IMG/VR virus record: IMGVR_UViG_3300031707_000119 | Coordinates: 1-29,827 of that record | Source of the DNA: a virus | Reading direction: 5' to 3' (one strand) | Length of the DNA stretch: 29,827 nt | Shown here: positions 3,209 through 20,598 of the stretch, piece by piece | Numbering within the stretch: the stretch's first letter is position 1 | Layout of the letters: each line of letters begins with the position of its first letter | The notes under the pieces: generated by a model | What the model saw: only the letters and a program-made list of their open reading frames with translations | Databases searched by the model: none | What the model was told of the DNA's origin: nothing | Position numbers and translations under genes: made by a program

Positions 3209-3619
3209 CTAGACACAGCAGTAGGCCACTCGGCAGGTCGCCGTATTGGCATCCGCCTTGTGCTCTATTTTTAGACTAATATTAAAATTCCAAACCCCCC
3301 AATAAAGCTCATTTACGGCAGGGGATTCCCCGGCTATCTTGGCCGCCATGTCCGTTATTATGGCCGTCCCATCAACCGTTATCTTGAGGAGTTGGTATTT
3401 TGCATCGGCCATGTTCCCCCCGGTGAACAGGATGGCTTGACCTTTTCCCGTAAGATCGACGACGGTCTCATAGGCCCCGCCCCCGCTGTGCGTGTCTGTA
3501 GCCGCCGTTGTGTAAATCATTTCCCCTCCCCCTGCCCCCGCCGTTAGTGAGCTAAGGCGTGTGTTGATATTTCGGAGTGCAGCTTCGTATTCTTTTTTAC
3601 TGGGCCAGGCATCGCTCAT
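3209..3619 (-). CDS. small phage tail-associated protein, unknown function
   Basis: A 136-residue protein. It starts with a helical segment (SKKEYEAALRNINTRLSSL, about residues 6-24), then a Gly-rich linker (TAGAGGGE), then a beta-rich C-terminal domain with VDLTGKGQAILFTGG and YQLLKITVDGTAI, ending in CCV. A short helix followed by a beta-sandwich is the usual layout of trimeric phage receptor-binding or fibre-tip proteins, but I do not recognise a family. ATG 3619 is chosen because GAGGAGG lies 6 bases upstream; a longer reading to 3658 ignores this site. It overlaps the end of the upstream gene by 23 bases and sits just before the glycosidase-like gene, in the tail-fibre part of the operon. 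Confidence 0.6.
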   Translation of the reverse strand: MSDAWPSKKEYEAALRNINTRLSSLTAGAGGGEMIYTTAATDTHSGGGAYETVVDLTGKGQAILFTGGNMADAKYQLLKITVDGTAIITDMAAKIAGESPAVNELYWGVWNFNISLKIEHKADANTATCRVAYCCV

Positions 3620-4499
3620 GCGCGTCCTCCTCGAATGGAAAGCCGATCCCCCGGACACTCTCTCGCGGCCGGAATGGCGGGTCGCTCACGAGTTCCACGA
3701 CGTGCCGCTCCGCCGCCGGGACCGAGGGCACGATAAGATCAAATATCGGCGTGCGCACGACAGCGATCCCGTGGTAAACGTCCCAGCTCATCGGCATCGA
3801 AAGAAGCCCCTGGAGGATATCGGCCAAAGCCTTATTCGTCGTCCAGGCCAAATCCATCCGCTCGGCCGCAACTAGGATCGTATCCTGACAATAGAAGGCG
3901 TGGGGAATGTGGAACCCAACCCGCAGGCCCGCATAGCGAAGGACGGGATTCGCAAATGGATGGCCCTGGACTCTTATATGCCTTTCGCCGACAATCGTAT
4001 GCTTGGAGTTCAGGGCCGCCTGCCATATCGGGTCAAAATATCCTTTGGCCCAAGTCGCGCAAAAGAACTCCCGGCAGCATTTTGGGAACCCCAGAAGTTC
4101 GCCCTGTGCGTCATTATCGCCCCGCTCGAAAGCCGCCTTGAACCTCAGGGTATCCGCAAGCGTCTTGGATATGATGACGCACAGGCTAGCCCGCTCGCCC
4201 GCCCGTGGCTCCTCGTGCCGGTGAGCAAATCCGTTAAAGTTTCGAACTCGCTTGATCGGCAGACTGACAAGCCCCTGTTCAGCCCAAGTCGCCGCAAGTC
4301 TCGGGAATTGGTCCTCGCCTATCGTCTGCCATGCGCAAGGCCGATGTCCCGCCGCGACGCTCGAAACTTCAAGGTCCGATACCATCGCCCCGATTTTGGG
4401 GATGATAGGAGCCCATTCTTTTCGCGCCTCTTCGCTCAGCCAGACAGTCCGGCATGACGGCGCCAGGTCAAGTCCCGGAATCAGTTTCATTTCAGACAT
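3597..4499 (-). CDS. unknown protein with GFPKCC motif next to the radical SAM enzyme
   Basis: A 300-residue protein beginning MSEMKLIPGLDLAPS. The gene overlaps the radical SAM gene by 8 bases. Its middle has ELLGFPKCCREFFC, a Gly-(Phe/Tyr)-Pro-x-Cys-Cys pattern reminiscent of uncharacterised DUF483-like proteins. Later it has VGFHIPHAFYCQDTI, giving further His and Cys residues that could bind a metal. The N-terminal part has another Cys (APSCRTVW), plus PCAWQTI. There is no signal peptide or membrane segment. Its position between a peptide-modifying enzyme and tail genes suggests an accessory or partner in the same modification (substrate binding, second-step enzyme or scaffold), but that is inference. 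A longer reading to 4712 would overlap the SPASM region of the neighbouring gene in another frame and was rejected. The family assignment is weak. Confidence 0.6.
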   Translation of the reverse strand: MSEMKLIPGLDLAPSCRTVWLSEEARKEWAPIIPKIGAMVSDLEVSSVAAGHRPCAWQTIGEDQFPRLAATWAEQGLVSLPIKRVRNFNGFAHRHEEPRAGERASLCVIISKTLADTLRFKAAFERGDNDAQGELLGFPKCCREFFCATWAKGYFDPIWQAALNSKHTIVGERHIRVQGHPFANPVLRYAGLRVGFHIPHAFYCQDTILVAAERMDLAWTTNKALADILQGLLSMPMSWDVYHGIAVVRTPIFDLIVPSVPAAERHVVELVSDPPFRPRESVRGIGFPFEEDAHERCLAQ

Positions 4500-5691
4500 C
4501 GGTATGATCTCCGTGTGGCTTATCCCCGTGCTCGTCGCCGTGCGCATCGCCGTGGCCGGAGCCTCCGGCCCATTTTCGCGCCCGTTCGTTCGAGTCCTTG
4601 AACTTAATATCCGGCATGATACCCCGCAATCTGGCCCGGACATGAGCGAAGAGCATCTTATATGCCTCGCAGAACCGGGTCCGGTTCCGCCAATCATTGT
4701 CGATACCCGCACCTCCGCAACCCCCGCTGCAAATACTCCAGAACTCGCATCCCTTACAGCCGCCGAGTTCCTGGGGGATCATCGCCAGGGCATGAACCCT
4801 TTCAGCACCGGGCCCCTCTGCGGCGAGCGCCTGAATCCCGTCCAGGGCCGCCCCCCCCTTGAGGCAGACACCGATGCCGCCGTCCTCCATGATGGCCGTC
4901 TCGGCTTGGGTCCGCCAGATATCGCAGCCGTTGAACGTGCAGGTCGAATCGCCGCCCTCGATGAGCATCTTCACGACGTCCCGGTAGGGATACCAGGCCC
5001 GCCCCGGATCCCCGAAGCAGAGATTCGCAAGCTGGACGAAAGCCGATCCCAGCTCATTGGGCGTCAACTCCTCATCCCGGAACCGGTCCTCATAAACGAT
5101 GACTTCATTAGTTCGGACTGACCGGATTCCCATGTTCTCCAGCCGGAGCAGGAACATCTCCGTAGAGCCAATAATATCCGGGGCCGCGTTGTATCGGCGG
5201 AGAAGCACGATAGCCGATACGCACAGTCCGGCTTCCACGGCCCGCTCCATATTTTCGAGCGTCTTATGTGTCAGCTCTTGAATCTTGCCGGGTGTCAGGT
5301 TGCCGTCATTCCAGCGGCCCTGATTCGTCACCGCCGTATCACCATCGATTGAAACCCCAACCCCGACGTTGAACTCCTTGAACATCGCCAGGTGTTCATC
5401 GGTTATAAGGACGCCGTTTGTCTGGATGGATGCCTTCCCATAAAGTTCGAACATCGTTTTAAGAATCGTTCGCAAATCGGTCAGCGGGAAAAGAAGCGGC
5501 TCGCCGCCGTGGACGCAGGGGGCCGAGTATTTTCGCCGGTTCTCCGGCGTCTCTTTCTCTGCCTCCCGGCGCAAGGTCGCCAGCATGGCTTCGAGATTAT
5601 AGGCGACTTTACCTTGCGTCTTTCGTATCCGCCGCTCATAGCAAGATCGACAAAGCCCGTTGCAGTCCATCAGCTTAAAATGCAGTCCCAT
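4492..5691 (-). CDS. radical SAM/SPASM peptide-modifying enzyme with His-X-Asp tail
   Basis: A 399-residue enzyme. C10-x3-C14-x2-C17 (CNGLCRSCY) is the canonical radical SAM [4Fe-4S] site; HGGEP at 61-65 and SIQTNG at 88-93 are the SAM-binding strands. The C-terminal SPASM domain is complete: C256-x14-G-x4-C276, then C312-x2-C315-x5-C321-x3-C325, then C341, so two auxiliary clusters are expected. Enzymes of this class, such as anaerobic sulfatase maturases and RiPP maturases, modify protein side chains. Residues 380-398 carry HGD four times and HTD once, copying the repeats of the tail protein encoded just upstream. The ATG shares one base with the TAA stop of that tail gene (TAATG), so the two are translationally coupled. 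The substrate is inferred to be the repeat tail. An anaerobic host and a ferredoxin or flavodoxin partner would be needed. Confidence 0.9.
   Translation of the reverse strand: MGLHFKLMDCNGLCRSCYERRIRKTQGKVAYNLEAMLATLRREAEKETPENRRKYSAPCVHGGEPLLFPLTDLRTILKTMFELYGKASIQTNGVLITDEHLAMFKEFNVGVGVSIDGDTAVTNQGRWNDGNLTPGKIQELTHKTLENMERAVEAGLCVSAIVLLRRYNAAPDIIGSTEMFLLRLENMGIRSVRTNEVIVYEDRFRDEELTPNELGSAFVQLANLCFGDPGRAWYPYRDVVKMLIEGGDSTCTFNGCDIWRTQAETAIMEDGGIGVCLKGGAALDGIQALAAEGPGAERVHALAMIPQELGGCKGCEFWSICSGGCGGAGIDNDWRNRTRFCEAYKMLFAHVRARLRGIMPDIKFKDSNERARKWAGGSGHGDAHGDEHGDKPHGDHTDV
4495..4554 (-). repeat. C-terminal His-X-Asp repeats of the radical SAM enzyme
   Basis: The last 20 codons encode five aromatic-X-Asp triplets (HGD, HGD, HGD, HGD, HTD) with 0-2 residue spacers, the same pattern as the C-terminus of the neighbouring tail protein. 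This may be a substrate-mimicking dock, an automodification site or a metal-binding tag. Confidence 0.75.
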
Positions 5692-8600
5692 TAATACTCC
5701 GAATCTCCGTGGGCGATATTTCCGTGCAGATCCTGGTGGGTGACGTCCTCGTGGGTTACGTCCGCGTGCGCTTCGTCCAAGTGCGTATCGTCGGCGTGCG
5801 TATCGACGTGCTCCCGGTCCCAGTGCTTGTCCAGATGCGCCGTGTTCAAGTGTTCATCTGTATATTCATCAACGTGGGTATCCGTGTGGCCATCCGCGTG
5901 CGTGTCCGTATGGTCAGTGTCTACATAAGCTGTGTTGGTGTGTCCGTGATCGTCATAGGCAACATTCTCGTGGTCGATGTCCGTGTAAGCGCTATCCTTA
6001 TGGGCATGGTCGTTATGCTCGAAGTCGGAATAGTGATCCCCGTGACCTACATTGGCATGATCTACATAACTGTCCTGGTGCGGAATATCGGTATGCGGGA
6101 CATCTGAATGGCTCCCGCTATCTTGGTGCGGCGTATCCTCGTGTGGGGTATCCGTGTGCGAAGCGTTCCCGTGAGGCGTATCCGTATATGCCGTATCCCC
6201 ATGAGAATTAGCATGAGTAACATTCGCGTGGGTGTCATAATGGGATTCGACGTGATCCTCGTCGGAATAGGGCGTATCGTCGTAGCTGTCGGCGTGGGGG
6301 ATGTTCGTCCAGTCATTCGCGTGGGTGTCGTCGCCGTGGCTGTCCTCATGGGGAACGTCTTCGTGGATATCGGTATGACTGTCGGAATGGGTGACATCAT
6401 TGTGCATGGCCCCCGTGCTCTGGATGTCCAGAACCGCTTCGACTTCGACCGTCGCCCGACCGGCGTTTTTTACCAGCGTCAACGCTCGGTAAACGTCCTC
6501 ATCAAGAACGGTCTGTGCGTTCCCCTCGCCGTCACGGATGGCTTTCGATATGACGATTTTCTCCGCTGGCCGGTGGCCCAAGAGTAGCGCCGGGACCGAT
6601 CCGGTTACACGCTTTTCCGGCGAGCGGATGATATTCAAATAGAACTGGGCCAAAAGCGTCGCGTCGGAATCGACCGTCAATAATGTTTCCTTCTCCAGCA
6701 CTTCGGCCTGGTCATATCGGAGCGCTATCTTCGCGTCCGTCACCTCTTCCGCCAGCCAGTTCTGGGTCGTGGGGTCTTGGCCGTACTTTACGACAACGGA
6801 TTTGCGGACCGGCGCTGTGTCATAAGCCAGGGAGAACGAGGCCATATCGAGTTGGTCAATCCGGGTCTCGGTCCCCGTTGTCCCTGCCGCATAGCGGAAT
6901 GCGCCGAATGTCCCGTTCGCCAACGGGATAAGGTGGAATACATTCGAGTCCTGGAGCTTCCGAATAAAATCCAAAACGCCGCCGGAAGGTTGGTCTGTCA
7001 AATAGGCGGCCAGCGGCTGGACCCGGTTCGCCTGAAGGTCCAGGAATGATTCCAGATCGATTTGGCTCTTCGGGATTGCCGGAGAATTGAACACGGTCAG
7101 GACTGCGTATAGGATATCCGCGCCGATGTTGCTGTAGGTTGCGTCCTGAATCTTGCACTTCGCGCCCTTCGCCTTGCAGGTAATGACGGCTCCCTCCGGG
7201 TCTGCAACAAGCTGAAACCAGCCATTAGCCAAACTTACGGAATAGTCCGTAGTCAGCGTGAGCGTGGCCCCGTTCTTATAGACTGCACTTATGGCTTCCA
7301 GCGCGTGCCCGGCGATCTTGTATTTCCAAATCGTCGTGTCGATACAGACTGGCGTAATATTATCCAACTCGCCGAAAAGGATAGGGATGGCCCGGCCGAC
7401 GGCCGTCGGGTCCAGGTTTGCGTAAGTCGTCGTATCATAGAGGCCCGCCGGGAGTGTGCCGAAAAGCCCCTCCCGCGCGTCCACGATCTCGAAAGTCGCT
7501 TCCTTGTCGTTTATGGAGGGCCTTGACGTCCGGCCCAAGAAGAGCGTCCCGAGCTCCGCGTAATCCGAGTCGATGGCCCCGGCCTTCAGCCAGAACTTCT
7601 TTAAATGCCAGATGTAATCTTCGAGCGCTTCATACCACCAACCGTCGTTCCCATATCGGAGCCCGCCCGCGGAGAACGCGACGTCCCCGATGTAATAGTC
7701 CCCGACGCTCTGGGTTATTTCCGGCGCTCCGCCCTGCGGGATGATGGCCCGATAGGGCGTCGGCTCAAGGATTCTCACCAGTGAAGCGTCGTCCAGGTAA
7801 AAGTAATAGACTTCGCCGAGGTCGATCGTTCCGGTTTTTACAGTGAATTTATAATCCGAATAATCATCATCAGCCGTGAAGGGAACCTCAACCTCAGTCC
7901 ATCCGGCGCTCGTGACACCAGTGACCTCATTATCGACCACCGCGCCCCATGTTCCGACCGTCGCGTTATACCAGACGTTTCCGGCGCTATCCTCCAAGCG
8001 CCACTTGACCATGATGCCCGGCGAGGCTACCGAACTCTTGAGATAAAATTTCACCCGACCCTTACATTCCGGGCGAAGGATTATTCCTGATTGATAGAGC
8101 GAAAGCGCCCCGGTCGTCGCGGCCGGGAGATACCAGTTGTCCAGGTAAAAAGTATTGGCCGCGTCTGCGTTGACGACCGTGACGATGATCTTGTCGATGG
8201 CGTCCTTATTCGCGTCCGAAACGCCGGAGATGTCCCAGGTGACGGTCTGCCAGGTATCGACCACGAGAACATTCGGCGTCGTTTCGGTCGTCGTCCCGCC
8301 GCTGTCGTGAATACCGATCTTGATATTCGATCCGGTCCGCCCGGCGTAGATGTCAAACTTTATGGTATCAATCCCAGTGAGGTCAATCGGCGTCGTGATC
8401 GTCCGGGTCAGCGTCTTATTTAGGCTTGTCGTGATGGCCCCGACCGCCTTCAGGGAATATGTCCCCTCCTGCTTTATCGTGCCTTCGGAATAGGACTGAA
8501 GCGCCGGGGTCGTAAGTGCGACCTTAATGATAACAATGCCCTTGCCACCGTTTCCGCCCGCGCCATTATCGAGCGCCCCGCCGCCGCCGCCACCCGTGTT

Positions 8601-9902
8601 GGGCGTCCCGGAATTGGCCGCGCCCGCCGAATATCGACCATTCGCCCCGCCGCCCAGGCCGCCGAGGCCATAGCCGAATCGACCCGCCCCGCCGCCACCG
8701 CCACCGTAATATTCCCCGAAATACTCTAGGCCGTCTCCCCCGTCGCCGCCTATTTGACTGGCTCCATCAGCTCCAACCGTATCGGCTCCGCCGCCTCCGC
8801 CCCCAGCCAGGTAATTACTCGTCACGCCAAAGGGCATTGCATCGCCGCCGTCATTGCCCTGGAGGGCTGTCCCGGCACCACCGGCCGCACTCGCCCTTCC
8901 ACCACCACCGCCGCCCGACCCGCCGGGATCACCCGCAATTTCGCGTCCGCCCCCGCCGCCCCCACCTTTCGCGGTCATCACTCCGAAGATTGAATCGCCG
9001 CCGGTTGCGCCCTTGAGATCCCTGTCCGTGCCGCCGAGTCCACCTTCGCCGATCGTTACGGCCATCACCCCGCTGACCGAATAAACATCGTCGTATAGCA
9101 GTCCGCCCCCGCCCCCGCCTCCACCGCCGCACTCGGAGTTTATGTCACCGCCCCCCCCACCCCCGCCCGCGACGACCAAGACCTCGGCATCAACCGAGCC
9201 GGACAAGACCGTAAACGTCCCGCTCTCATAAAAGGTGTGGATGCGATAGCCACCGGCCATCGTTACGGTCCCGCCCGTCGTGTTATACTCAGCGATATAA
9301 GCCGCCTGAGCCAGGGCGTCCGTCGCGTACTCCATGCGCTCGAACCACTTGTCCCCGGCATCGACCGTGAATTTGGCCGCATAGGCCCCGCCGTGGACCT
9401 CCGTCGCCTCGCGACTTATAGATGAACCCGACGATTCGCTCTTCGTCCACTTAGCTAATGCGGTCGCACTTGTCCAGTCCTCCAACCCGCCGTCAAGTAG
9501 CTTCTCAATCTCCGGCTCAAATACCGGGTCCCTGCCGCTTGAATCCATGCGGTCGCTGAATCCGATTAGGAAATACCCCAAGATGCAAAAATCATAAACA
9601 CTAAGTGTCTGATGATTCGGGATGTCATCGGTTGAAGTGTGAAGATAAATTCGCGGGTCCGCCGGATCCAGGTCCATGAAAAACGTAGATTGCGTCGCAT
9701 CGCAATCCGCCACTGAAAAAACCTCGGCATATTCGGACCCGTCCTCGATGACTTCGATGATCTCCCCGTCCGCCATCGGCGTGTAATATGAGCCGCCCCC
9801 ACTGGCCGTCCACTCCAGATATTCCAACTCGATGGCCGGGTAGTGCTCGCAGACGACGAGCCGCCGGGAGTCGGGGAGTTCGAGCAGATCGGCGAAATTC
9901 AT
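5691..9902 (-). CDS. large tail hub/fibre protein with Gly-rich domain and aromatic-X-Asp tail
   Basis: A 1403-residue virion protein, placed after the tape measure and distal-tail-like genes where the tail tip hub is usually encoded. Residues 1-120 are hub-like. About 130-190 begins a carbohydrate-binding-like beta-sandwich. Residues about 210-462 are a phage fibre Gly-rich domain (GGYRIHTFYESGTF, LVVAGGGGG, long Gly runs). About 463-600 and 605-715 are further CBM-like segments, each ending in YLDN/YLDD. About 720-1160 is a hub/baseplate-like region (TDQPSGGVLDFIRKLQDSN). Residues 1167-1403 are about fifty H/Y/W-x-D/N triplets. It would form the tip of the tail and contact the host surface. 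Its stop overlaps the start of the radical SAM gene, and the gene begins 2 bases after the preceding stop. The hub role is inferred from gene order; the domains are seen. Confidence 0.85.
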   Translation of the reverse strand: MNFADLLELPDSRRLVVCEHYPAIELEYLEWTASGGGSYYTPMADGEIIEVIEDGSEYAEVFSVADCDATQSTFFMDLDPADPRIYLHTSTDDIPNHQTLSVYDFCILGYFLIGFSDRMDSSGRDPVFEPEIEKLLDGGLEDWTSATALAKWTKSESSGSSISREATEVHGGAYAAKFTVDAGDKWFERMEYATDALAQAAYIAEYNTTGGTVTMAGGYRIHTFYESGTFTVLSGSVDAEVLVVAGGGGGGGDINSECGGGGGGGGGLLYDDVYSVSGVMAVTIGEGGLGGTDRDLKGATGGDSIFGVMTAKGGGGGGGREIAGDPGGSGGGGGGRASAAGGAGTALQGNDGGDAMPFGVTSNYLAGGGGGGADTVGADGASQIGGDGGDGLEYFGEYYGGGGGGAGRFGYGLGGLGGGANGRYSAGAANSGTPNTGGGGGGALDNGAGGNGGKGIVIIKVALTTPALQSYSEGTIKQEGTYSLKAVGAITTSLNKTLTRTITTPIDLTGIDTIKFDIYAGRTGSNIKIGIHDSGGTTTETTPNVLVVDTWQTVTWDISGVSDANKDAIDKIIVTVVNADAANTFYLDNWYLPAATTGALSLYQSGIILRPECKGRVKFYLKSSVASPGIMVKWRLEDSAGNVWYNATVGTWGAVVDNEVTGVTSAGWTEVEVPFTADDDYSDYKFTVKTGTIDLGEVYYFYLDDASLVRILEPTPYRAIIPQGGAPEITQSVGDYYIGDVAFSAGGLRYGNDGWWYEALEDYIWHLKKFWLKAGAIDSDYAELGTLFLGRTSRPSINDKEATFEIVDAREGLFGTLPAGLYDTTTYANLDPTAVGRAIPILFGELDNITPVCIDTTIWKYKIAGHALEAISAVYKNGATLTLTTDYSVSLANGWFQLVADPEGAVITCKAKGAKCKIQDATYSNIGADILYAVLTVFNSPAIPKSQIDLESFLDLQANRVQPLAAYLTDQPSGGVLDFIRKLQDSNVFHLIPLANGTFGAFRYAAGTTGTETRIDQLDMASFSLAYDTAPVRKSVVVKYGQDPTTQNWLAEEVTDAKIALRYDQAEVLEKETLLTVDSDATLLAQFYLNIIRSPEKRVTGSVPALLLGHRPAEKIVISKAIRDGEGNAQTVLDEDVYRALTLVKNAGRATVEVEAVLDIQSTGAMHNDVTHSDSHTDIHEDVPHEDSHGDDTHANDWTNIPHADSYDDTPYSDEDHVESHYDTHANVTHANSHGDTAYTDTPHGNASHTDTPHEDTPHQDSGSHSDVPHTDIPHQDSYVDHANVGHGDHYSDFEHNDHAHKDSAYTDIDHENVAYDDHGHTNTAYVDTDHTDTHADGHTDTHVDEYTDEHLNTAHLDKHWDREHVDTHADDTHLDEAHADVTHEDVTHQDLHGNIAHGDSEY
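5694..6404 (-). repeat. aromatic-X-Asp/Asn repeat region of the tail protein
   Basis: Codons 1167-1403 encode about fifty triplets of the form H-x-D, with Y in place of H in several (YDD, YSD, YTD, YVD), W once (WTN), and N in place of D in about ten (HAN, HGN, HTN, HLN). Spacers are 1-2 residues, giving a period of 4-5. More than forty His residues are present. The middle residue varies freely, and codons vary between units, so selection acts on the protein pattern rather than on a recent DNA duplication. There is no Cys in the region. Confidence 0.9.
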
Positions 9903-9904
9903 GC

Positions 9905-10663
9905 TTACATTTCCTCAGAAAGGGTCAGTGTCAGGTTCCAGACGTCCATGTGAATTTGGTCCCACTTCCAGGCCAGGGCGACTACATATTGGGTTTTCGT
10001 GTTTGGATCGTCCGGGTCCTCGCAGAACCAAAACGGGAGCGACCTTCCGACGGCCGCCCGGATAGTCTCAAAGTTGACTTTCTCCGATGTCCTGAATACA
10101 TACTGCCAGGCTCCCGGCTGATCCTGGATAACGACCGCTCTCTGTCCGCCCGCGCTCGTCGTGATGATGCTCAAGTCCTCGGGCGTGAAGGCGAACCCGT
10201 TCTTGTAATTGATCAGGGGCGTAAAGGATGGCCCGATAAAAATTGGTCCGACCTCGATATATCCATCCGGGTTTGCGGCGTCCGAAATAAGGAGACGCCA
10301 ATATTGATAGGATACCGGATCGTCGAAATAGGCCGCCATCACCCGTTCGTTAATAGGACTCAGGATCGCCTCGAATCCGGGGTCGGCCCAAACATCCGTA
10401 TCGTTCCCTTGAATTGTAACCACGGCGGCGGCACTGAAGTTATTCCCCCGGAGCGCGAATGCCTGAATAGTGACTGCGGCATAAAAGTTGACCGTGATGG
10501 TCTGGTCGTCAACACAATTCGTTGATCTCCACCGTCGGCCGGGAATCCGGCGCTGGGTATTTGTAACCGGGAAGTTTGTTTCCTCGGTCAATGCAGTCAT
10601 CGTCAGGTCCGTTCCCTCAATGCCCTTCCAGAGATTGTCATATAGGAATTTGCAGGTTGCCAT
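9905..10663 (-). CDS. distal tail-like protein with discoidin-like N-terminal domain
   Basis: A 252-residue protein encoded between the tape measure and the tail hub, the position of distal tail or baseplate-wing proteins in siphoviruses. Residues about 1-140 look like a galactose-binding/discoidin beta-sandwich (VTIQAFALRGNNFS, then SYQYWRLLISDAANPDGYIE, a usual ending of such folds). Residues about 150-252 are a second beta-rich domain ending in WNLTLTLSEEM. The single base between the preceding TGA and this ATG indicates coupling, and the next gene follows after 1 base. It probably forms the ring joining tail tube to hub. The role is inferred from gene order; the fold is only suggested. 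Confidence 0.6.
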   Translation of the reverse strand: MATCKFLYDNLWKGIEGTDLTMTALTEETNFPVTNTQRRIPGRRWRSTNCVDDQTITVNFYAAVTIQAFALRGNNFSAAAVVTIQGNDTDVWADPGFEAILSPINERVMAAYFDDPVSYQYWRLLISDAANPDGYIEVGPIFIGPSFTPLINYKNGFAFTPEDLSIITTSAGGQRAVVIQDQPGAWQYVFRTSEKVNFETIRAAVGRSLPFWFCEDPDDPNTKTQYVVALAWKWDQIHMDVWNLTLTLSEEM

Positions 10664-10664
10664 G

Positions 10665-12782
10665 TCAGTATGCCCTCACCGCCCGTGGATGGATTTGCAT
10701 GAGTTCGGTTCGGCTTAACTCCCGGATAGTTTTTGAGATGAATACCTTCATCTCATGACCATCCAGATAGATATGATTCTCGATAGTAATCGGCTGGCCC
10801 ATCCCTCCGCCCGGTCCCATGATGGCCTCTCTGAGCTGGCGCGGCGAGCTGACGATCTCCGCCTCCCCGCCCTCGGCGACCTCATATTCCTGGCCGCTGG
10901 CTTGGGACATGAGCATGGCCCTCTGCTTGAAAATGGCCCCCTTCGCTGCGCCGACAGGTTGGCTCTTGATGAGTGCGATCTGGACGGCTCCCATCGCGGC
11001 AATTATCCCGGCTAAGATCGGACCGATGATGGGTCCGGCCGTCAGCGCTTTCGTGAATGCCTCGGCCACATTGATGATGGCCATCGCTATGGCGATCATC
11101 TTCTGTTGTCTTGCCGCCGCAATCTGGGCCGCCCGGCGTTTCATTTCATACTCGGCCTCAAGCGCTGTGATGGCCGTCTCTTTTTCCTTCTCGTTCATCA
11201 CGCTGTTTTGAATCAGCTCCAGCCGCTTTTGATATTCCTGATCGAGCATGAGCATCCGGTTTGTCGTTGACTGTTGCATGATGGCTTCGATCTGGCTAAC
11301 GACCGATTGGGCTCCGCTGAGGATCTGCTGAAACGAAACCTTCTGAGCGCCCGCCGCGTCTCGGGCGGCCTTCTCCCACGCCTTCGCTGTCTTGGGCGGG
11401 TCCTGAAGCATCCGACCTGTCGCCGCCGCAGAGACCGTCTGCATATTCCTGAAGGCTGGGATTACGGTATCGATGATCGTTTCTCCGAAAGCCGAGAGCG
11501 ATTTCTGCGCGGCATCCATGCCGATCTTGTAATCCGCCGCGCTGATGGTTCCTGCTTTCCAAGCCGCTGTCAGCACCTTCTGCTCATTGAACACGGCCTG
11601 CATCGCCGCCTTCAGCGGATTATATTTGTTGATGATCTCCTGGGCCGCAGCCGCCAGCTTATGCTTCGCGTCCGCCGCTTCCTTTGCCGCCTTGATCTCC
11701 GCCGCCGTCAAGTTATGGACGGCTGTCCCGGTTTGGTTAATCTTCGCGGGTGCACTCGTGAACATCCCCACTAATGCACCGAAGTCAACACCGAATATCT
11801 TCACCATCGGGGCCGCCTTCGCAAAAGTCTTACCCACGACATCGACCGCGATGGCCAACCCGGCATTGACCTTCGAGGCGTGCTCCGCCTTCGCGGATTC
11901 AAGACTCAATAAAAGCGTGATCTGCTTCAAGCCCGTGGTGAAGTGATCGAGAATCGGGCTTGACCTGACAAGTTGGTTCAGGAAGTTTGCAAATGCGCCG
12001 GAAGCCACGAAGCCTCCCATAGCTTGATTGAGGGCCACGATGGCTGTGCCAAGTCCTTCGGTCTTAATGACCGCTTTTCCGGCCGCCTCCTTGACCTCGT
12101 TCCAGTTATTGGCTAATTGTTTCAGCGCCCCACCGAAGGTCTCTGTCTCAGCCGTGGAACGCGAATAGAGTTTATTCAACTGATCGAGGAGTGATGCTTG
12201 CTTCTGTTCCGTCGTCAAGTTCTCGGCAACCCTGATTCCGACCCGGCCGAGTGCCGTATAATTCCCCTCCATCGCCTTTGTGACCATCATGGTCGCACTG
12301 TGAAGGTCTATCCCCATCGTCGATGCCAGGCCCATCGCGCCTTTCGTCGCCCGGTCAAGTCCCTGCTGGTCAAGGCTCGTGAGCTGGAGGAGCAACGCCT
12401 GGCTAGCCATGACCTGTTCGTCCGTGTAGGTCGTCGCCCGCATCTGCTCAGCGGCAAACTTCTTATAGTGCTGGATGTTCCCTTCGACAGTCCGGCCCGT
12501 GATCTCAAGTGCCGCGCTCAGGTTATTCTCGGCCTGCTCGGATTCGATTGCCGCCGCGATCGAACTGGTAACCATATCCTTGAGCGCACCAATCCCTTTC
12601 CGAAGCGCCCCGGCTACGAGTGTTCCGGCCGTGAATTGAGCAAAGAGGCTGCCGAATGGACCGCTTGAGCCTGCGGCCTTGGCCGTCGTTCCAGCCGCTT
12701 GGTTAATGGCCCCGTCTAAATCCTTAATGCTTTTGAGCGCACCGGTAGCATCGCACTCTACGATGTACTTGATGTCGGCCAC
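10665..12782 (-). CDS. tail tape measure protein
   Basis: A 705-residue protein that sets tail length and passes through the tail tube during DNA delivery. Residues about 25-60 are Gly/Ala-rich, followed by long helical stretches typical of tape measures (ESEQAENNLSAALEITGRT, MGIDLHSATMMVTKAMEG, a TMP_N-like segment). A hydrophobic block near 575-620 (AMAIINVAEAFTKAL, PIIGPILAGIIAAMGAVQI) could be the membrane-inserting part. The start is GTG 12782, directly after the TAA of the frameshifted chaperone reading frame, with AGGAGG 5 bases upstream. It is short for a tape measure, predicting a fairly short tail; usual proportionality is about 1.5 angstrom per residue. Following the G/G-T pair is the standard siphovirus order. 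Confidence 0.88.
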   Translation of the reverse strand: MADIKYIVECDATGALKSIKDLDGAINQAAGTTAKAAGSSGPFGSLFAQFTAGTLVAGALRKGIGALKDMVTSSIAAAIESEQAENNLSAALEITGRTVEGNIQHYKKFAAEQMRATTYTDEQVMASQALLLQLTSLDQQGLDRATKGAMGLASTMGIDLHSATMMVTKAMEGNYTALGRVGIRVAENLTTEQKQASLLDQLNKLYSRSTAETETFGGALKQLANNWNEVKEAAGKAVIKTEGLGTAIVALNQAMGGFVASGAFANFLNQLVRSSPILDHFTTGLKQITLLLSLESAKAEHASKVNAGLAIAVDVVGKTFAKAAPMVKIFGVDFGALVGMFTSAPAKINQTGTAVHNLTAAEIKAAKEAADAKHKLAAAAQEIINKYNPLKAAMQAVFNEQKVLTAAWKAGTISAADYKIGMDAAQKSLSAFGETIIDTVIPAFRNMQTVSAAATGRMLQDPPKTAKAWEKAARDAAGAQKVSFQQILSGAQSVVSQIEAIMQQSTTNRMLMLDQEYQKRLELIQNSVMNEKEKETAITALEAEYEMKRRAAQIAAARQQKMIAIAMAIINVAEAFTKALTAGPIIGPILAGIIAAMGAVQIALIKSQPVGAAKGAIFKQRAMLMSQASGQEYEVAEGGEAEIVSSPRQLREAIMGPGGGMGQPITIENHIYLDGHEMKVFISKTIRELSRTELMQIHPRAVRAY

Positions 12783-13522: not shown

Positions 13523-14893
13523 TTATGCGAGATAATCCGCACTCCGGCTATTCTGGAGCACAACATAGACGGGAAGTAATAGGGCTGTCATGCCCGTCGG
13601 GCCGGGACTGTCTGCCGTCACTCCGCGCAATACGATCTTGGCCGGAATGATTTTGCTGTCCGCATACTCAACGTCCTCGACAATGAGCCGCGGGAAAACG
13701 AACCTCAGATAGTAATTGTATGCCCCATCGATAGCCGGGCCGGTGATCGTGATGTCCGCCTTTTTCTCCGTCGCGGCAATCCAGTCCGCGAAGTAGGCCG
13801 CATTGGTGGTGTCCATACGCGGAAATTCCATTGTCAGCTTGACGGATGGCTTGTCATTTTCAACCGGCTCAACGATTGTCTGGACGCCCGCGACGTGTTC
13901 CGAGTCCATCTTCCGCTCGATCTCAAGCGAGAATGACTTGGGCCTTATGATATCCGCACCCCCACCGTCGAAATCCAAGCCGGTCTGTGCGTTCATCTGG
14001 AACACGGCCTGGGTGAACTTCGCACGTGCGTGCGTGTTACCAGTGACCGTCGTCGAGGTAAAGGCCGTAGGGAGCGCCGAATTGTCCACGACGCTGATGC
14101 CCCGCAGGTTGAAAGCCGCCTTGATGAGCCCTGCGTTCACGGAGAATGAACCTTTCAGAACCTTGAACGTCGGCACGGTGTGGATCTTCGTCCCCTTCTC
14201 CGTCGCGTAAGTCCCGAATATCCCGAACGCCTTATTCAGCAGGACGAGGGAATGAAGGTAATTGAGCGCGATGCCGACACCCGCAACGTCCGACGTGTAG
14301 GTTGCCGCCCCGGTGTCGTCGGCCGCGTCTGAGTAACCCAGGAGCGTACTGCAATCCGTCGCCTTGCTTGTCCCCGAGAACCATTTCAACTCGAAATTCC
14401 CGCCCGCCGAAATCGTGAACTTCCTGGTCGTCGCGTCATGCGTGACGGTATAGGTCAAGGCTCCAACGGAGGCGTCGAGCTTTGCCTTGATTTCCGCGCA
14501 GAGCGCGGTTGCCGTATAGGTTCCGTTCGACAACGTAGCTTCTATTTGTGCCCCACCCTCCCCGAAGTCGAGTTTGTTGTTTGCGGCGCTCACGATGAAA
14601 TACATCCCCGGCAACCCGGCTGTCCCCATGAGCATCGCCAGGAGCAGATTCTCGCGTCCGTCCCATCGGTAGTCAAAATCGAGCGCGAAGTCCGTCGGAT
14701 TGATTACCCCGACATCGAGATTTGTCTCGAACGCTCCGTAACTTTCATCATCCATCATCTGGACTGCCGCCTTCGGAGCGCCCGGATTCAAGGGCAAGAA
14801 TCCCATCCCTGCCGCATCGGTATCGACGGCCGTCCCCCAGATCGCAGCCTTTTTGACCGCTGCCTTATTTAGCCTTTTCTCAATGTCCGCCAT
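13523..14893 (-). CDS. major tail tube protein paralogue 2, with inserted domain
   Basis: A 456-residue virion protein clearly paralogous to the one encoded just upstream (14906-15946). Shared features include the start MADIEKRLNKAAVKKA, FDYRWDGRENLLLAMLMG, HTVPTFKVLKGSFSVNAGL, SLEIERKMDSEHVAG, PSVKLTMEFPRMDTTNAAYF and VEDVEYADSKIIPAK. It differs by an insertion at about residues 97-208 (NNKLDFGEGG, GTYTATALCAEIKAKLDA, ATTRKFTISAGGNFELKW), a beta-rich module also found in other phage structural proteins. Gene order just before the chaperone pair fits a tail tube subunit. The insertion may be displayed on the outside of the tube. The tube function is inferred; the paralogy is plain. Confidence 0.75.
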   Translation of the reverse strand: MADIEKRLNKAAVKKAAIWGTAVDTDAAGMGFLPLNPGAPKAAVQMMDDESYGAFETNLDVGVINPTDFALDFDYRWDGRENLLLAMLMGTAGLPGMYFIVSAANNKLDFGEGGAQIEATLSNGTYTATALCAEIKAKLDASVGALTYTVTHDATTRKFTISAGGNFELKWFSGTSKATDCSTLLGYSDAADDTGAATYTSDVAGVGIALNYLHSLVLLNKAFGIFGTYATEKGTKIHTVPTFKVLKGSFSVNAGLIKAAFNLRGISVVDNSALPTAFTSTTVTGNTHARAKFTQAVFQMNAQTGLDFDGGGADIIRPKSFSLEIERKMDSEHVAGVQTIVEPVENDKPSVKLTMEFPRMDTTNAAYFADWIAATEKKADITITGPAIDGAYNYYLRFVFPRLIVEDVEYADSKIIPAKIVLRGVTADSPGPTGMTALLLPVYVVLQNSRSADYLA

Positions 14894-14905
14894 GTTGTCC
14901 TCCCC

Positions 14906-15946
14906 TTACGCGATGAAGCTCGTTGTGCGAAGGTTGGTAACGAAAATCCCGATCGGCAGGAGCCCCGTCAATCCCGTCTGGGCCACGTCCGCCATAGCAC
15001 CCCTGAGCACAACTTTAGCCGGGATGATTTTGGAATCGGCGTATTCGACATCCTCAATGATGAGATGCGGAAGTTGGATATTCAGGACGTATGGAAAAGC
15101 ACCAGCACAAGTCGGCCCGGTAACAATGATGTCGGCCTTCTTATCGGTTGCCGCCGTCCATACCGCGAAGTATGCGGCGTTCGTCGCATCCATGCGCGGG
15201 AATTCCATCGTGAGTTTCACGCTCGGTTTGTCGTTCTCGATGGGTTCGAGGACGACTTGGCTCCCGGAAACGTGTTCCGCATCCATCTTGCGTTCGAGTT
15301 CGAGGCTGAACGCCTTTGGCTTGATGATATGCCCGGACCCGAGTGTCGTACCCCCGCCTGCGAGCGTGTAATCATTCATCCTGAATACGGCCTGCTGGAA
15401 CTTGGCCCGGATGTGCGCGTTGGCAGGGACGGCCGTTGAGCCGAGAGTTGCCGTTCCGCTGGTGATATGGCTTCCCCGTAACGCAAATGCCGCCTTTATC
15501 AAGCCCGCACTGGTTGAGAACGTCCCCTTCATCACTTTGAATGTCGGGATTGTATGGACCTCGGTCAACTTTTCAACGGCATAGGAGCCGAAGAGTCCGG
15601 CGGCAGAGTTCACCAGGGTGACGGTATGCAGAATGGCTGCCGTGCCACCTTGCGGAGCCGGAGCCGTATCGACACCCATGAGGAGTCCGAGTAGGATATT
15701 CTCCAGGCCGTCCCAACGATAATCGAAGTCCAGGCTGAAATCTGAGACGGCATAATTGCCGACGTCCAGGTTGACGTCGAATGCCGACGCACTCTCATCC
15801 TCGATCATCTGGACATTTCGTTTCGGGACACCAGGATTCAACGGCAGGATCCCATTCCCCGCGCCGTCCAATCCCGCGATGACCGTTCCCCAGTCCGTCG
15901 CCTTTTTAATGGCCGCCTTATTGAGTCTTTTTTCAATGTCACCCAT
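14906..15946 (-). CDS. major tail tube protein paralogue 1
   Basis: A 346-residue protein, the shorter of two tandem paralogues. It lacks the roughly 110-residue insertion of the downstream copy and otherwise aligns over its length: MGDIEKRLNKAAIKKA, FDYRWDGLENILLGLLMG, HTIPTFKVMKGTFSTSAGL, SLELERKMDAEHVSG and IEDVEYADSKIIPAKVVLRG. As the first of the pair, upstream of the chaperone and tape measure and downstream of the tail terminator and ferredoxin genes, it is probably the main tube subunit, polymerising into stacked rings around the tape measure. GGAGGTCAAC precedes the ATG. Which copy is the true tube subunit cannot be told from sequence. Confidence 0.75.
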   Translation of the reverse strand: MGDIEKRLNKAAIKKATDWGTVIAGLDGAGNGILPLNPGVPKRNVQMIEDESASAFDVNLDVGNYAVSDFSLDFDYRWDGLENILLGLLMGVDTAPAPQGGTAAILHTVTLVNSAAGLFGSYAVEKLTEVHTIPTFKVMKGTFSTSAGLIKAAFALRGSHITSGTATLGSTAVPANAHIRAKFQQAVFRMNDYTLAGGGTTLGSGHIIKPKAFSLELERKMDAEHVSGSQVVLEPIENDKPSVKLTMEFPRMDATNAAYFAVWTAATDKKADIIVTGPTCAGAFPYVLNIQLPHLIIEDVEYADSKIIPAKVVLRGAMADVAQTGLTGLLPIGIFVTNLRTTSFIA

Positions 15947-15958
15947 GTTGACCTCCTA

Positions 15959-16306
15959 TTATTCCTCTATCGGCTCTATCGCTTCGACGGGACAGACAGC
16001 AACGCATTCGGCACAGCCGTTGCAGGTGTCCTCATCGATTGAATAGGGATCTGGCGTAATTGCCTCAACCGCACAGACTTCGATACACGCCGCACATTCA
16101 ACACAATCATCCTGATTAATCCTGTATTTCACGACAGGTGGTTCCACGACCTGTGATGCAAACCCTTCGGCAATCCAGGCACTCACCACGTTGTCCGGGA
16201 TGCTTTCCGGGATGCCGGGTTCTCCCGTATCGATGGTGGCTCCGACATCGAACCGTATCATTGTCGGAGGATAATGCTGATTTGATTTCTGCCACATGAT
16301 TTTCAT
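15959..16306 (-). CDS. phage-encoded 2x[4Fe-4S] ferredoxin-domain protein
   Basis: A 115-residue protein. Residues about 62-110 are a bacterial dicluster ferredoxin: C68-x2-C71-x2-C74-x3-C78 and C95-x2-C98-x2-C101-x3-C105, the second with the usual CP after the last Cys. All eight ligands are present, so two low-potential [4Fe-4S] clusters are expected. Residues about 15-60 (TMIRFDVGATIDTG, IPDNVVSAWIAEGFA) form a small non-ferredoxin domain that resembles short phage head-tail proteins. The gene is embedded between a tail terminator-like gene and the tail tube genes, 1 base after its upstream neighbour. It could donate electrons to the radical SAM enzyme of the same operon, or be a structural Fe-S protein in the virion. 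The motif is certain; the role is inferred. Confidence 0.88.
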   Translation of the reverse strand: MKIMWQKSNQHYPPTMIRFDVGATIDTGEPGIPESIPDNVVSAWIAEGFASQVVEPPVVKYRINQDDCVECAACIEVCAVEAITPDPYSIDEDTCNGCAECVAVCPVEAIEPIEE

Positions 16307-16793: not shown

Positions 16794-17083
16794 ATTACCC
16801 TCACATAAATGGCGTCATGGTCGGGTGAACAATAGACGCTCAGGTCTGTGGTCGTGATGGTAAATTGAACCAGGTAAAGCGCCCCTGATGTCCCGCCGGA
16901 TATTGTTTGGAGAACTTGCGAGCCGGAGATTGCAACAGCCCCGTCAAGTGTCAGGCCCGCAGGCGTGGAGACGGCTGTCGCCGTACTGATTGTATTTGTC
17001 GCACTCACATCGGGTGGCCAATAATAGAGGCCGATCTTGAACTTTTCCATGTGTGCTTTTTCCACGAAAAACTGTGTCGCCAT
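16790..17083 (-). CDS. small phage virion protein, unknown function
   Basis: A 97-residue protein, MATQFFVEKAHMEKFKIGLY at the start, then Thr/Ser/Ala-rich beta-strands (ATAVSTPAGLTLDGAVAISG) and an end YCSPDHDAIYVRVI. There is no Cys cluster, signal peptide or membrane segment. It is coupled on both sides: TAATG with the repeat-protein gene upstream and ATGA with the tail terminator-like gene downstream. The beta-rich composition suggests a small structural or decoration protein. No family is recognised. Confidence 0.55.
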   Translation of the reverse strand: MATQFFVEKAHMEKFKIGLYYWPPDVSATNTISTATAVSTPAGLTLDGAVAISGSQVLQTISGGTSGALYLVQFTITTTDLSVYCSPDHDAIYVRVI

Positions 17084-20000
17084 TATCGGCCCCCTATGCT
17101 CCGCACATTGAAAATCCGGCGTCTCGGTTCGGTATCATGCGCTCCCGATCTGTGAAGCAGCGCCAGTTGAAAGACGAACTCTTCGCCGGTATCTACGAAC
17201 GTATCAAGTGATGCGATTCCAACCAAGATGCCGCCGACAATACCTGACAACACGGAGCGTTGATTCAGGAGTGCTGTTGCCGAAGATAGCCCCGCGCACG
17301 ATCCATTCTGAGCCAGTTTTGCGAGCGGACTTGCCGTAGTGGTGGATGTGCTTGCGACCGCGCCCGCAAGATATTTGCCCCAAGACGGACTTGCTGTAAC
17401 CGCGCTAATCGCGGCAATCGATCCGGTTAGGGAATGTTGTACGACCAGGTTTCCCGATATGCCCGATGTTCCCGAGGATGCGCCTATGAGGACATAATCT
17501 GTCTTGAGAATACCCGAAGTGGAAGAGACGCCGTTGCATGAACCGGCAAGACGGCGGGTTATTTCAAATGCGGCCGCGACGTTCGATATCCCAGCGCATG
17601 ATCCACTGTAAGCCGGACGATTGACTAGGTTTGCCGTAGTCGTGGATATGCCGGATGCACCCCCGATCAATGGGTGAGTGACAACCAGGTTGCCGGAAGT
17701 GGAAGAGGTTGCCGCGCTTGTCCCAGCGAGTTCGGGCAGGCCTAAAACGTCAACCGAACCCGTGACGCTCGATATCCCTGCCGATGAACCCACCAGGGGG
17801 TGAAGGACTAGCAGGTTTCCGGTGACGGATGAAAGCCCTGCCGCAGAGGATACAAGGGGACGGCTGACTGCGAGGTTACCCGATACCGCCGACAATCCAT
17901 TAGCAGAACCGGCCTCAATAATCGTCAGGACAAGATTGCCTATCGCCGCCGAAGTCCCGGCAGATGATCCGGCCAATGCTTTGGTAACGACCAAGCCGGA
18001 CGAAACGGCAGATGTACCAGTCGCAAATCCGGCAAAACCGCTCCCTGCGGAAGTTAAGTCACCCGTCACGGACGATATGCCAGCGGCTACCGCTCGCTGG
18101 TTTTCGTATGCGCCGATATCGGGGAGTGGGTAATTAAGCGAAATAATTAAGACGAGATTGCCCGAATCCGCGGAAGTCCCGGTCATGATCCCCGTGAATA
18201 GATGGGTAGTCGATAGGATACCACTCGTCGTTGACGTTCCGCCCAATATCCCATTAAGTGCGATGGCTCCCTGGATATCAACCGCGCCCGTGACGCTAGA
18301 GATGCCAATCGCGGCTCCGAAAAGATTATAATCAATGACCAAGCCTCCGGCGACTGTCGATATTCCACTGGCAGGGCCGGATAGCGTTAATCCGCCGACA
18401 AGATTACCCGCTCCTGTAGAAGTGCTGGCGGCACTACCAATCAGGGTAACGGAACTTGCTAAACTACCCGTTGCTGTCGATGCCCCGGCCGCTGAGCCGA
18501 CGATGGGACGGGTGACCAAGGCGTCACCAGTTGTACCAGATATCCCGCCGGCTGTTCCGACTAAGGTAACCGAACCGTTGACATTAGCGGTGGCAGTTGA
18601 TGATGAATCGGCGGCGCCGGATAAAGGATGCGTGACAACTAGATTACCCTGGGCCGAAGTCGTCCCCGATGCCTGTCCCGCAAGAGCATAATTAACAAAA
18701 AGGTCGGTTAATGCCCCACCTTGATATTCATAGGCTCCGATATCCGGGATGCCCGTATAACCTAATCCGCCGATATTGGAGATCGCGCTTATTGAACCCA
18801 CGAGTTCATGAGCAGAGGAAGTGGTGATTGACCCCGATACCGAAGAAAGACTTTCAACTATTCCCGCCAGGGGGCGGGTGACGGCTAAATCTCCGGCGGT
18901 CGTGGATGCTCCATCCGCAGACCCGGCGAGTAGATGCGTTGCAGACAGGTTGCCGCCAACCGTTGATAATCCATCGGCAGGGCCGGATAGGATCGACGTC
19001 GCGGTCAGATCGCCCGTTACCGAAGAAGTGCCGGATGATTCGCCGACAAGTAGATCCAGTATAGAGAGATCGGCTTGAACCGTTGATATTCCATCTGCTT
19101 GACCCTCGAATATATCATCAACCGAAACGTCAGCCGCAGTAGACGATACGCTTATAGGCGCACCCGCGAGAGAATAGAGGGCGACAAGTTCGCTATCAGC
19201 CGATGATATCCCGATGGTGGTCGAATTGAATGGATAGGTGACTACAAGGTCGCCAGTCGCCGTCGAAATACTGGCCGATGGACCTGCAAGTATTTCCGAT
19301 AACGATACGTCGGCGACAACCGCCGATTGCCCCGTTGCCGATCCGCTAAATGAAATACCTGTCGTAAGTACCGCGTCCGCGCCGGATATCCCGGCTGATA
19401 CCCCTTCGCAGAGCTGGTCTACCCCAGCTAAGATGACGGCCAAATCACCCGTGACAGATGATGCGCCAGCGAGGATCGTTCCTTGATATTCGTATCCCCC
19501 AATGTCAGGGATGGGGAAGTTCAGGAATACGATTCTTTCTGCGTTGCCTGCAACGGCGGAAGTCCCGGCTACGGCTCCCGTGAAGGGAGCAGCCCCGGAT
19601 AAACCACCAGCGCTCGATGCCGCTCCCGCTGATGCGCCCCCAAGCGAATACTCAGACGTCAGCTCGCCCTCGACCGTCGGCGTCCCGATGCACGCACCAT
19701 ATTGAGCAAGCGAAGCGTTGATAGCCGCAACGCAGGATGACTGAACCACAGATGATCCGACAAGCGGGCGGGGGACGGATAATTCACCCGCCGCCGCCGA
19801 TACCCCCCATACCGCCGCCACATTAGCAACACTCAAGGAGGCCGATACCGCGCCCGTCGCAACCCCGGCGGCGGCGCCGCCCAGGACGAGCGATGCCGCA
19901 AGTACGGCAGCCGCCACGCCCGCCCCCGCCGATGCTCCGGCGCATTCTTGGGTTGTTCCATAAGAGGCATAACCGGTTGAATCTATGCCGATTAAATCAA

Positions 20001-20598
20001 GATAAGCCGTTAGCGTGTATGCATTGGCGGAGTCTCCGAAACTGAATTTTACCGGTCCCGTATAATGTGTACCAGTAATAGACCCGCTTCCCTTTGATAC
20101 GCCGTCTATTTTATATTCCCAAAGATGATTTGTGTCGTCATATAAGATATCGATTCTATACCACGCGCCGAGAGTCAGGTTTCCCGCCGCAGGATAATCA
20201 ATAGTAGTGTTGGCCCCGTTATTATATATAATAAATCTTAAAATCAGTTGTGTCGTAGTTTGACGCAGAATTAATTGGGTCGGTTGCTGAACAGCCGTAT
20301 TTAAGGCCTGATATAAATATACCTGAGTTGCAGAACCCAATCCATGTGCCGTGGGACAGACATAAAAAGTTGTATATGTTATAGGTTGGTCTTCACCGGC
20401 GAGCCATTTTGCAACGGCATTAAAGTTCGGACTAACCTTTTGGATTTTTAATATCTGCGATCCACCCGCCGTAGGGCGTGCAATATCGGTACTGTCTTCA
20501 TCAACAACGCTTCCAGCTCCGACGGTTTCGGTCCATCCAGCCGCATCATATCCGGGGTTGGCCTCGAAGGACTCATATAAGATATTTGGCGTTGCCAT
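17083..20598 (-). CDS. 1171-residue virion protein with LamG-like domain and 20-residue repeats
   Basis: Residues 1 to about 215 resemble a LamG/concanavalin-type lectin fold (AHGLGSATQVYLYQAL, GAWYRIDILYDDTNHLWEYK, VKFSFGDSANAYTLTAYLD, IGIDSTGYA). From about 220 to 1135 there are roughly forty units of 20 residues, for example LVGESSGTSSVTGDLTATSI; the consensus is L-x-G-x-x-x-G-x-S-S-x-x-G-D/N-L-x-V-T-x-x. Such regular Gly/Ser/Thr repeats probably form a beta-solenoid. The array is broken three times, near residues 366, 619 and 829, by PDIGxYExQ, a motif from the end of beta-helix proteins. The last about 35 residues are unrelated and basic. It is likely a side-fibre or surface decoration that binds carbohydrate, following the beta-helix gene by 13 bases. 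Confidence 0.75.
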   Translation of the reverse strand: MATPNILYESFEANPGYDAAGWTETVGAGSVVDEDSTDIARPTAGGSQILKIQKVSPNFNAVAKWLAGEDQPITYTTFYVCPTAHGLGSATQVYLYQALNTAVQQPTQLILRQTTTQLILRFIIYNNGANTTIDYPAAGNLTLGAWYRIDILYDDTNHLWEYKIDGVSKGSGSITGTHYTGPVKFSFGDSANAYTLTAYLDLIGIDSTGYASYGTTQECAGASAGAGVAAAVLAASLVLGGAAAGVATGAVSASLSVANVAAVWGVSAAAGELSVPRPLVGSSVVQSSCVAAINASLAQYGACIGTPTVEGELTSEYSLGGASAGAASSAGGLSGAAPFTGAVAGTSAVAGNAERIVFLNFPIPDIGGYEYQGTILAGASSVTGDLAVILAGVDQLCEGVSAGISGADAVLTTGISFSGSATGQSAVVADVSLSEILAGPSASISTATGDLVVTYPFNSTTIGISSADSELVALYSLAGAPISVSSTAADVSVDDIFEGQADGISTVQADLSILDLLVGESSGTSSVTGDLTATSILSGPADGLSTVGGNLSATHLLAGSADGASTTAGDLAVTRPLAGIVESLSSVSGSITTSSAHELVGSISAISNIGGLGYTGIPDIGAYEYQGGALTDLFVNYALAGQASGTTSAQGNLVVTHPLSGAADSSSTATANVNGSVTLVGTAGGISGTTGDALVTRPIVGSAAGASTATGSLASSVTLIGSAASTSTGAGNLVGGLTLSGPASGISTVAGGLVIDYNLFGAAIGISSVTGAVDIQGAIALNGILGGTSTTSGILSTTHLFTGIMTGTSADSGNLVLIISLNYPLPDIGAYENQRAVAAGISSVTGDLTSAGSGFAGFATGTSAVSSGLVVTKALAGSSAGTSAAIGNLVLTIIEAGSANGLSAVSGNLAVSRPLVSSAAGLSSVTGNLLVLHPLVGSSAGISSVTGSVDVLGLPELAGTSAATSSTSGNLVVTHPLIGGASGISTTTANLVNRPAYSGSCAGISNVAAAFEITRRLAGSCNGVSSTSGILKTDYVLIGASSGTSGISGNLVVQHSLTGSIAAISAVTASPSWGKYLAGAVASTSTTTASPLAKLAQNGSCAGLSSATALLNQRSVLSGIVGGILVGIASLDTFVDTGEEFVFQLALLHRSGAHDTEPRRRIFNVRSIGGR
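17150..19940 (-). repeat. about forty 60-bp (20-residue) tandem repeats
   Basis: The DNA encoding the repeat part of the 1171-residue protein consists of diverged units of mostly 60 bases, recognisable on the plus strand as recurring blocks such as GTCGTGGATA, GTGACGGATGA and GACAACCAGGTT. Units differ enough that the array is old, but homologous stretches remain that could recombine. A few units are longer where PDIGxYExQ islands or extra hydrophobic segments are inserted. Confidence 0.75.

Follow-up and report, generated by a model that had tools for sequence, protein, structure and literature searches.

Described systems closest to the locus

Triceptide maturases, including XncB/XyeB, OscB/GrrM, YxdB, YhhB, and HaaB, are radical SAM (rSAM) enzymes with a SPASM domain, encoded next to a substrate with motifs of the aromatic-x-Asp/Asn type. 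Among such three-residue-cyclophane synthases, YxdB joins Tyr to Asp and OscB joins Trp to Asn or Asp, a Phe-Asn pair is also known, and HaaB and YhhB link the C2 of His to a beta-carbon (PMC11002830). In the TvgA/TvgB poly-cyclopropylglycine system, an rSAM enzyme modifies many tandem repeats of one substrate (PMC11002830), and the His-Xaa-Ser system (HxsABCD) pairs repeats that have His at position 1 with an rSAM partner. In Thermus phages, Kolesnik et al. (2024) described an rSAM module of Cumys and phiMa, consisting of an rSAM gene, a DUF483 gene, and a third gene of unknown function, and suggested a role in DNA modification; the accessible part of that article does not mention an array (PMC11437467).

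The window, by which we mean the whole stretch of DNA that was analyzed, is a 29.8-kb IMG/VR viral contig and contains the same type of module as Cumys and phiMa, encoding an array protein, an rSAM/SPASM enzyme, and a DUF483-like protein. An earlier note on this DNA had known of no described phage with this arrangement, a claim to be qualified by the 2024 description of the module in Thermus phages, the accessible part of which is silent on the array (PMC11437467). A literature search on rSAM enzymes and tail fibers, with most subscription journals outside its coverage, found no report of a phage tail protein modified by an rSAM enzyme.

The module shares with the triceptide maturases an rSAM enzyme with a CxxxCxxC core and a two-cluster SPASM domain, an adjacent substrate with an aromatic-x-(Asp/Asn/other) motif, and the same residue rules. 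It differs from them in lacking a short precursor peptide with a leader, since the proposed substrate forms the end of a large structural protein, in most cases one from the tail region that carries about 10 to 90 triplets, and in having a DUF483 partner and, in the window, an enzyme that scores below all family cut-offs and carries a mini-array of its own. Compared with HxsABCD, the third residue is Asp/Asn rather than Ser and the partner genes are different, whereas TvgA/TvgB has another motif, another chemistry, and a precursor peptide instead of a structural protein.

Gene organization of the window

The structural genes of the window lie on the minus strand, in the order prohead protease and HK97-type capsid, tape measure, phrog_8610 gene, tail protein, rSAM, and DUF483-like (Table 1). 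The array gene directly follows the tape-measure and phrog_8610 genes, and the position of the tape-measure gene places the three-gene module in the tail cluster. Within TAATG, the array and rSAM genes overlap by one base, and the rSAM stop in turn overlaps the ATG of the DUF483-like gene (GATGTCTGA, 4500-4492).

Table 1. Coordinates of the module and of neighboring tail genes in the window
Feature	Position	Strand	Basis
Array-bearing tail protein, 1403 aa	5691..9902	-	ORF; Pfam Gly_rich_2, E 1.5e-22; phrog_8917 and phrog_2295
Array, 50 [HYW]-x-[DN] triplets, residues 1167-1403	5694..6404	-	triplet count and shuffles
Tail domain in common with phrog_8917, residues 718-1018	6849..7751	-	E 7.7e-21; also in the array protein of locus L057
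Gly-rich domain, residues 228-460	8523..9221	-	Pfam PF21722
TAATG stop/start overlap of array and rSAM genes	5689..5693	-	TAA 5693-5691, ATG 5691-5689
Radical SAM/SPASM enzyme, 399 aa	4492..5691	-	C10xxxC14xxC17; seven-Cys SPASM C256-x14-G-x4-C276, C312xxC315x5C321x3C325, C341
C-terminal mini-array of rSAM (HGDAHGDEHGDKPHGDHTDV), HGD type	4495..4554	-	sequence; predicted disordered by AlphaFold2
rSAM stop/DUF483-like start overlap (ATGTCTGA)	4492..4499	-	sequence
DUF483-like partner protein, GFPKCC motif	3597..4499	-	DUF483 family relationship
phrog_8610 tail gene, upstream of the array gene	9905..10663	-	E 1.8e-21
Tape measure protein	10665..12782	-	phrog_1506, E 1.4e-5

The C-terminal 237 residues of the tail protein contain 50 non-overlapping triplets, with His (40), Tyr (9), or Trp (1) at position 1 and Asp (40) or Asn (10) at position 3, separated by spacers of two residues (29 times) or one residue (17 times). 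Asp or Asn follows at +2 in 40 of the 44 His, and the array holds 13 Glu, yet Glu is found at +2 of His only once. In 5000 shuffles that kept the composition of the array, the triplet count averaged 13.5 and never exceeded 24, and chance composition was rejected as its source. The earlier note had thus correctly described the array, its residue use, the TAATG overlap, and the coordinates of both genes, which are located on the minus strand.

Several other genes of the window were recorded in passing, those at 13523-15946, 15959-16306, 17083-20598, and 25071-25529 on the minus strand. A small structural-region protein (15959-16306) carries a fused ferredoxin domain with two 4Fe-4S clusters (Pfam Fer4), a possible electron donor to the rSAM enzyme; the ferredoxin part was not found in close relatives, whose matches cover only the first 54-63 residues, and it was rejected as a conserved part of the module. 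A 1171-aa protein (17083-20598) consists of Ser/Gly/Ala-rich repeats of the GISSVTGDL type, a short copy of which is also encoded at 22690-22884. Two tandem paralogous genes (13523-15946), whose products start with MADIEKRLNKAAVKKA and MGDIEKRLNKAAIKKA, perhaps encode major tail proteins, and an HNH-endonuclease-like gene, read by eye, lies within the head-tail cluster (25071-25529).

The radical SAM/SPASM enzyme

The window enzyme is an intact SPASM rSAM protein of the peptide-maturase type, and its CxxxCxxC motif and seven-Cys SPASM pattern are invariant in a 39-row alignment of members of its clade. Its AlphaFold2 model has a pLDDT of 89, with a C-terminal tail predicted to be disordered, and a Foldseek search with this model returned anSMEcpe, an anaerobic sulfatase maturase (anSME) with the same two-cluster SPASM architecture, as the closest solved structure (TM 0.68), together with ChlB. 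None of the curated NCBIfam models names a clade member, and the family cut-off that a cyclophane synthase should reach is not attained: the best match of the window enzyme is YhhB, with 73.8 bits against a cut-off of 445, and all others, including HxsB (E 1.7e-5, 23.8 bits vs 370), fall far below theirs. Most of the near matches are to models of cyclophane maturases or related peptide maturases (YhhB, DynA, FxsB, AmcB, and GrrM/OscB). The DynA, AmcB, and sulfatase_rSAM models match 39 of 39 members tested and YhhB matches 38 of 39, with the sulfatase maturase model scoring about equal to the cyclophane families. D277 of anSMEcpe, which we take to be the catalytic Asp, is the residue after a SPASM Cys (C276 in the window enzyme). 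This position is Asp in only one of 39 clade members and mostly Gly; with the catalytic Asp not conserved, identity as a sulfatase maturase was rejected. No sulfatase partner was seen.

The enzyme itself ends in a mini-array, which was absent from the earlier note, as was the third coupled gene. Such mini-arrays occur in the C-terminal tails of 44 of the 64 distinct clade members with a recognized SPASM end; HxD/N motifs, their middle residue mostly Gly, reach a density of 3.3 per 100 residues in the tails vs 0.19 in the cores. By inference, the mini-array may serve recognition or self-modification.

The DUF483-like partner

Glu, Asp, and Cys residues are invariant in the DUF483-like protein, two of the Cys forming a vicinal CC, and its core is predicted by AlphaFold2 with a pLDDT of 92. 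Comparison of this model with the solved structures of the PDB found no similar fold (best E 0.16), and therefore no mechanism can be read from the fold. Many relatives carry an extra C-terminal class I SAM-methyltransferase domain. The gene is located within 6 kb of the rSAM gene in 66 of the 72 clade members compared below, and is fused in 4. The protein is, by inference, probably a second tailoring enzyme or a substrate-handling partner.

Conservation of the three-gene module

In a tblastn search of 50,697 phage records, the enzyme was matched over most of its length only in the Thermus phages Cumys, phiMa, and phiLo (approximately 34% identity). In Cumys and phiMa, an array gene (57 triplets) precedes the rSAM gene and a DUF483 gene follows it, the array protein of Cumys being encoded in the baseplate region, and phiLo encodes three array proteins a few kb from its rSAM. 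IMG/VR and a set with one genome per species were scanned by alignment, and the members gained in this way belong to viral contigs, Bacillota, Chloroflexota, Acidobacteriota, Planctomycetota, Bacteroidota, Pseudomonadota, a Thermoprotei archaeon, and candidate phyla. Two haloarchaea came from a plasmid collection, and in one of them an array and a gene for baseplate J/gp47 lie close by. The resulting 72 distinct clade rSAMs are split from 46 outgroup rSAMs with an SH-aLRT support of 100.

An HxD-array protein is encoded nearby or on the same contig in 65 of these 72. In 53, an array of at least 10 triplets lies within 7 kb, and 51 of those arrays are upstream of the rSAM and on the same strand; a further 7 carry 8 or more scattered HxD/N motifs in a single nearby protein, 4 (L185, L187, L199, and L258) have 7-16 HxD motifs in a large nearby protein, and one has an array elsewhere on its contig. 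No array was found near the remaining seven, of which L028, L029, and L186 are close to the end of a contig, L030 is on an 8-kb contig, and L188 has 83 bases left downstream. The other two are a Halorussus member (L269) and a cyanobacterial one (L267/L268, genome G039, 8223-9050, minus strand), which adjoins a coiled-coil-like protein with THDQ/AHDQ heptads in place of HxD. Of the 46 outgroup rSAMs, 45 lack an array; the lone exception is situated about 3 kb from a clade rSAM. The array protein, the rSAM enzyme, and the DUF483-like protein thus form a three-gene unit conserved across distant viruses.

Array proteins are open frames of about 110 to 1430 aa with roughly 10 to 90 triplets, mostly in the tail region and towards the C-terminus. 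At L024, the array is part of a tail protein (phrog_31, central tail fiber J), and at many other loci it is carried by a short fiber-like protein. Two different clade rSAMs stand in tandem at L036 and L094, the former also with two array proteins. In a cellular branch of Bacteroidota, Pseudomonadota, and SAR324 (L185, L187, L190, L191, L194, L199, L201, L202, L203, and L258), the rSAM adjoins a protein, mostly of about 900-1370 aa, with spaced C-terminal HxD motifs, along with a DUF483-like protein, and several of these loci also encode a protein with an HExxH-like motif (HEMAHNKLF). The two large HxD-ending proteins of this branch that were tested had no Pfam match, and location on a virion is therefore not universal.

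Searching from the array side

According to the earlier note, homologous arrays occurring mostly without an rSAM neighbor would refute the pairing, and a search run from the array side gave the opposite result. IMG/VR was scanned with three degenerate DNA patterns that encode HxD repeats and take no account of the enzyme, and a diversity filter that removed simple tandem repeats left 60 distinct arrays among the matches listed. Of these listed arrays, 56 have a clade rSAM on the same contig, 51 in the flanking DNA examined and 5 elsewhere, one of the latter being a 54-residue fragment at a contig end. Among the four listed arrays without an rSAM, L143 and L352 are cut off at the contig end. 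The L075/L139 arrays, two copies of one sequence, were judged to be not genuine but a translation of low-complexity DNA. L162, in which the middle residues are mostly Ser/Thr and which the filter had removed, is a genuine array on an 18.9-kb contig without an rSAM. A similarity search for arrays in the 50,697 phage records found only the three Thermus phages, all with an rSAM.

Residue rules of the arrays

Residue statistics were compiled from 61 array proteins with 2161 triplets and 1845 His; the regular expression that delimits the arrays favors [HYWF]x[DN] but does not force every His of the region to comply. Asp or Asn occupies +2 in 1800 of the 1845 His (97.6%), with Asp in 1660, Asn in 140, His in 14, and Glu in 7. 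Ser is found there in only 4 of 1845, so that the HxS repeat of the His-Xaa-Ser system is not matched. Pro accounts for 0.4% of triplet position 2 vs 9.3% of spacer residues (p 3e-51). Between the arrays of the window and of L002, position 1 has changed in 12% (4 of 6 changes among H/Y/W) and position 3 in 24% (11 of 12 between D and N), compared with 62% for the middle residue and 70% for the spacers. Arrays rich in Trp (WxN/WxD; L193 and L200, in a Thermoprotei archaeon and an unclassified bacterial MAG) or in FxN (L022 and L036) retain an rSAM. One array (L098, 1543-2789, plus strand) mixes HxD and HxE triplets. The arrays are thus under strict selection for aromatic-x-Asp/Asn; these rules match the known cyclophane pairs and are the rules of triceptide synthases rather than of metal binding.

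Proposed function and alternatives

We interpret the three coupled genes as a virion-protein maturation module, in which the rSAM/SPASM enzyme would act on the array that ends the tail protein. Each aromatic residue (His, Tyr, or Trp, with Phe also used in relatives) would be linked to the beta-carbon of the Asp or Asn at position 3 of its triplet. The product would be a chain of about 50 three-residue cyclophanes, 1-2 residues apart, and could form a stiff rod at the tail that resists proteases and heat, an inference for which no virion data exist. That the rSAM enzyme modifies the array is held with high confidence, although its action is inferred; that the product is a poly-cyclophane is the probable outcome, with the bond likewise inferred in the absence of chemical data. 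Co-occurrence and residue use support the proposal of the earlier note that the array is a poly-triceptide substrate, while the reaction itself remains an inference. Counterpoints are the missing curated family match, anSMEcpe as the closest solved structure, the absence of a leader peptide, the solitary array of L162, and the Halorussus and cyanobacterial members.

An unlikely but still viable alternative is that the rSAM enzyme modifies the array by another reaction, such as oxidation or decarboxylation of Asp/Asn, epimerization, or inter-chain His/Asp crosslinks, and that the methyltransferase which DUF483 often carries possibly completes the modification. The same co-occurrence and substrate rules speak for such a reaction, the sequence is as similar to those of anaerobic sulfatase maturases and AmcB as to those of cyclophane synthases, and methyltransferase domains are frequent. 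However, an aromatic residue at position 1 together with Asp/Asn at position 3, a free middle residue, and the avoidance of Pro fit better with a side-chain bond between positions 1 and 3, and the anSME catalytic Asp is not retained.

There is little to recommend the view that the array is a metal-binding or iron-capturing fiber tip and that the rSAM enzyme is present for something else. The array is rich in His and Asp, and HxH motifs of phage and pyocin fibers have been linked to iron binding in the portions of the two reports available (PMC11705849, PMC6116203), but HxH is rare here (14 of 1845) and the iron-binding pattern is lacking, Tyr, Trp, or Phe can stand in for His and Asn for Asp, whereas Glu and Cys do not serve as replacements, and arrays co-occur with rSAMs even where they are rich in Trp-x-Asn or Phe-x-Asn. 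Metal binding alone is consequently disfavored.

Modification of DNA by the module, as proposed for the Thermus phages by authors who cite cyanobacterial homologs beside deazapurine DNA-modification genes, is most improbable, since the third gene in Cumys and phiMa encodes an HxD-array protein that goes unmentioned in the accessible part of their article (PMC11437467), the module is located in tail or baseplate clusters, and the contexts seen gave no support, with a clade member in only one of 339 cyanobacterial genomes and no DNA-modification gene recognized there by eye.

Significance for viral fiber biology

Because the pairing of array and enzyme recurs in many unrelated bacterial and archaeal viruses, phages probably build chemically cross-linked tail fibers, for which the literature covered has no description. 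For the full proposition, namely that tailed viruses of bacteria and archaea use a dedicated rSAM maturase to turn a tail C-terminus into a covalently stiffened poly-cyclophane rod, and that the cellular branch does likewise on large surface-like proteins, we consider the chances to be even. A natural substrate with at least 50 predicted cyclophanes per chain would go far beyond the triceptides known to us. The aromatic-x-Asp/Asn array with a SPASM rSAM provides a searchable signature, cultured members exist in the Thermus phages Cumys, phiMa, and phiLo, and a puzzling rSAM/DUF483 locus becomes a testable protein-modification system in which DUF483 gains a context. If the proposal is true, viruses would have a new way of building fibers, in which an enzyme cross-links a virion protein through radical chemistry.
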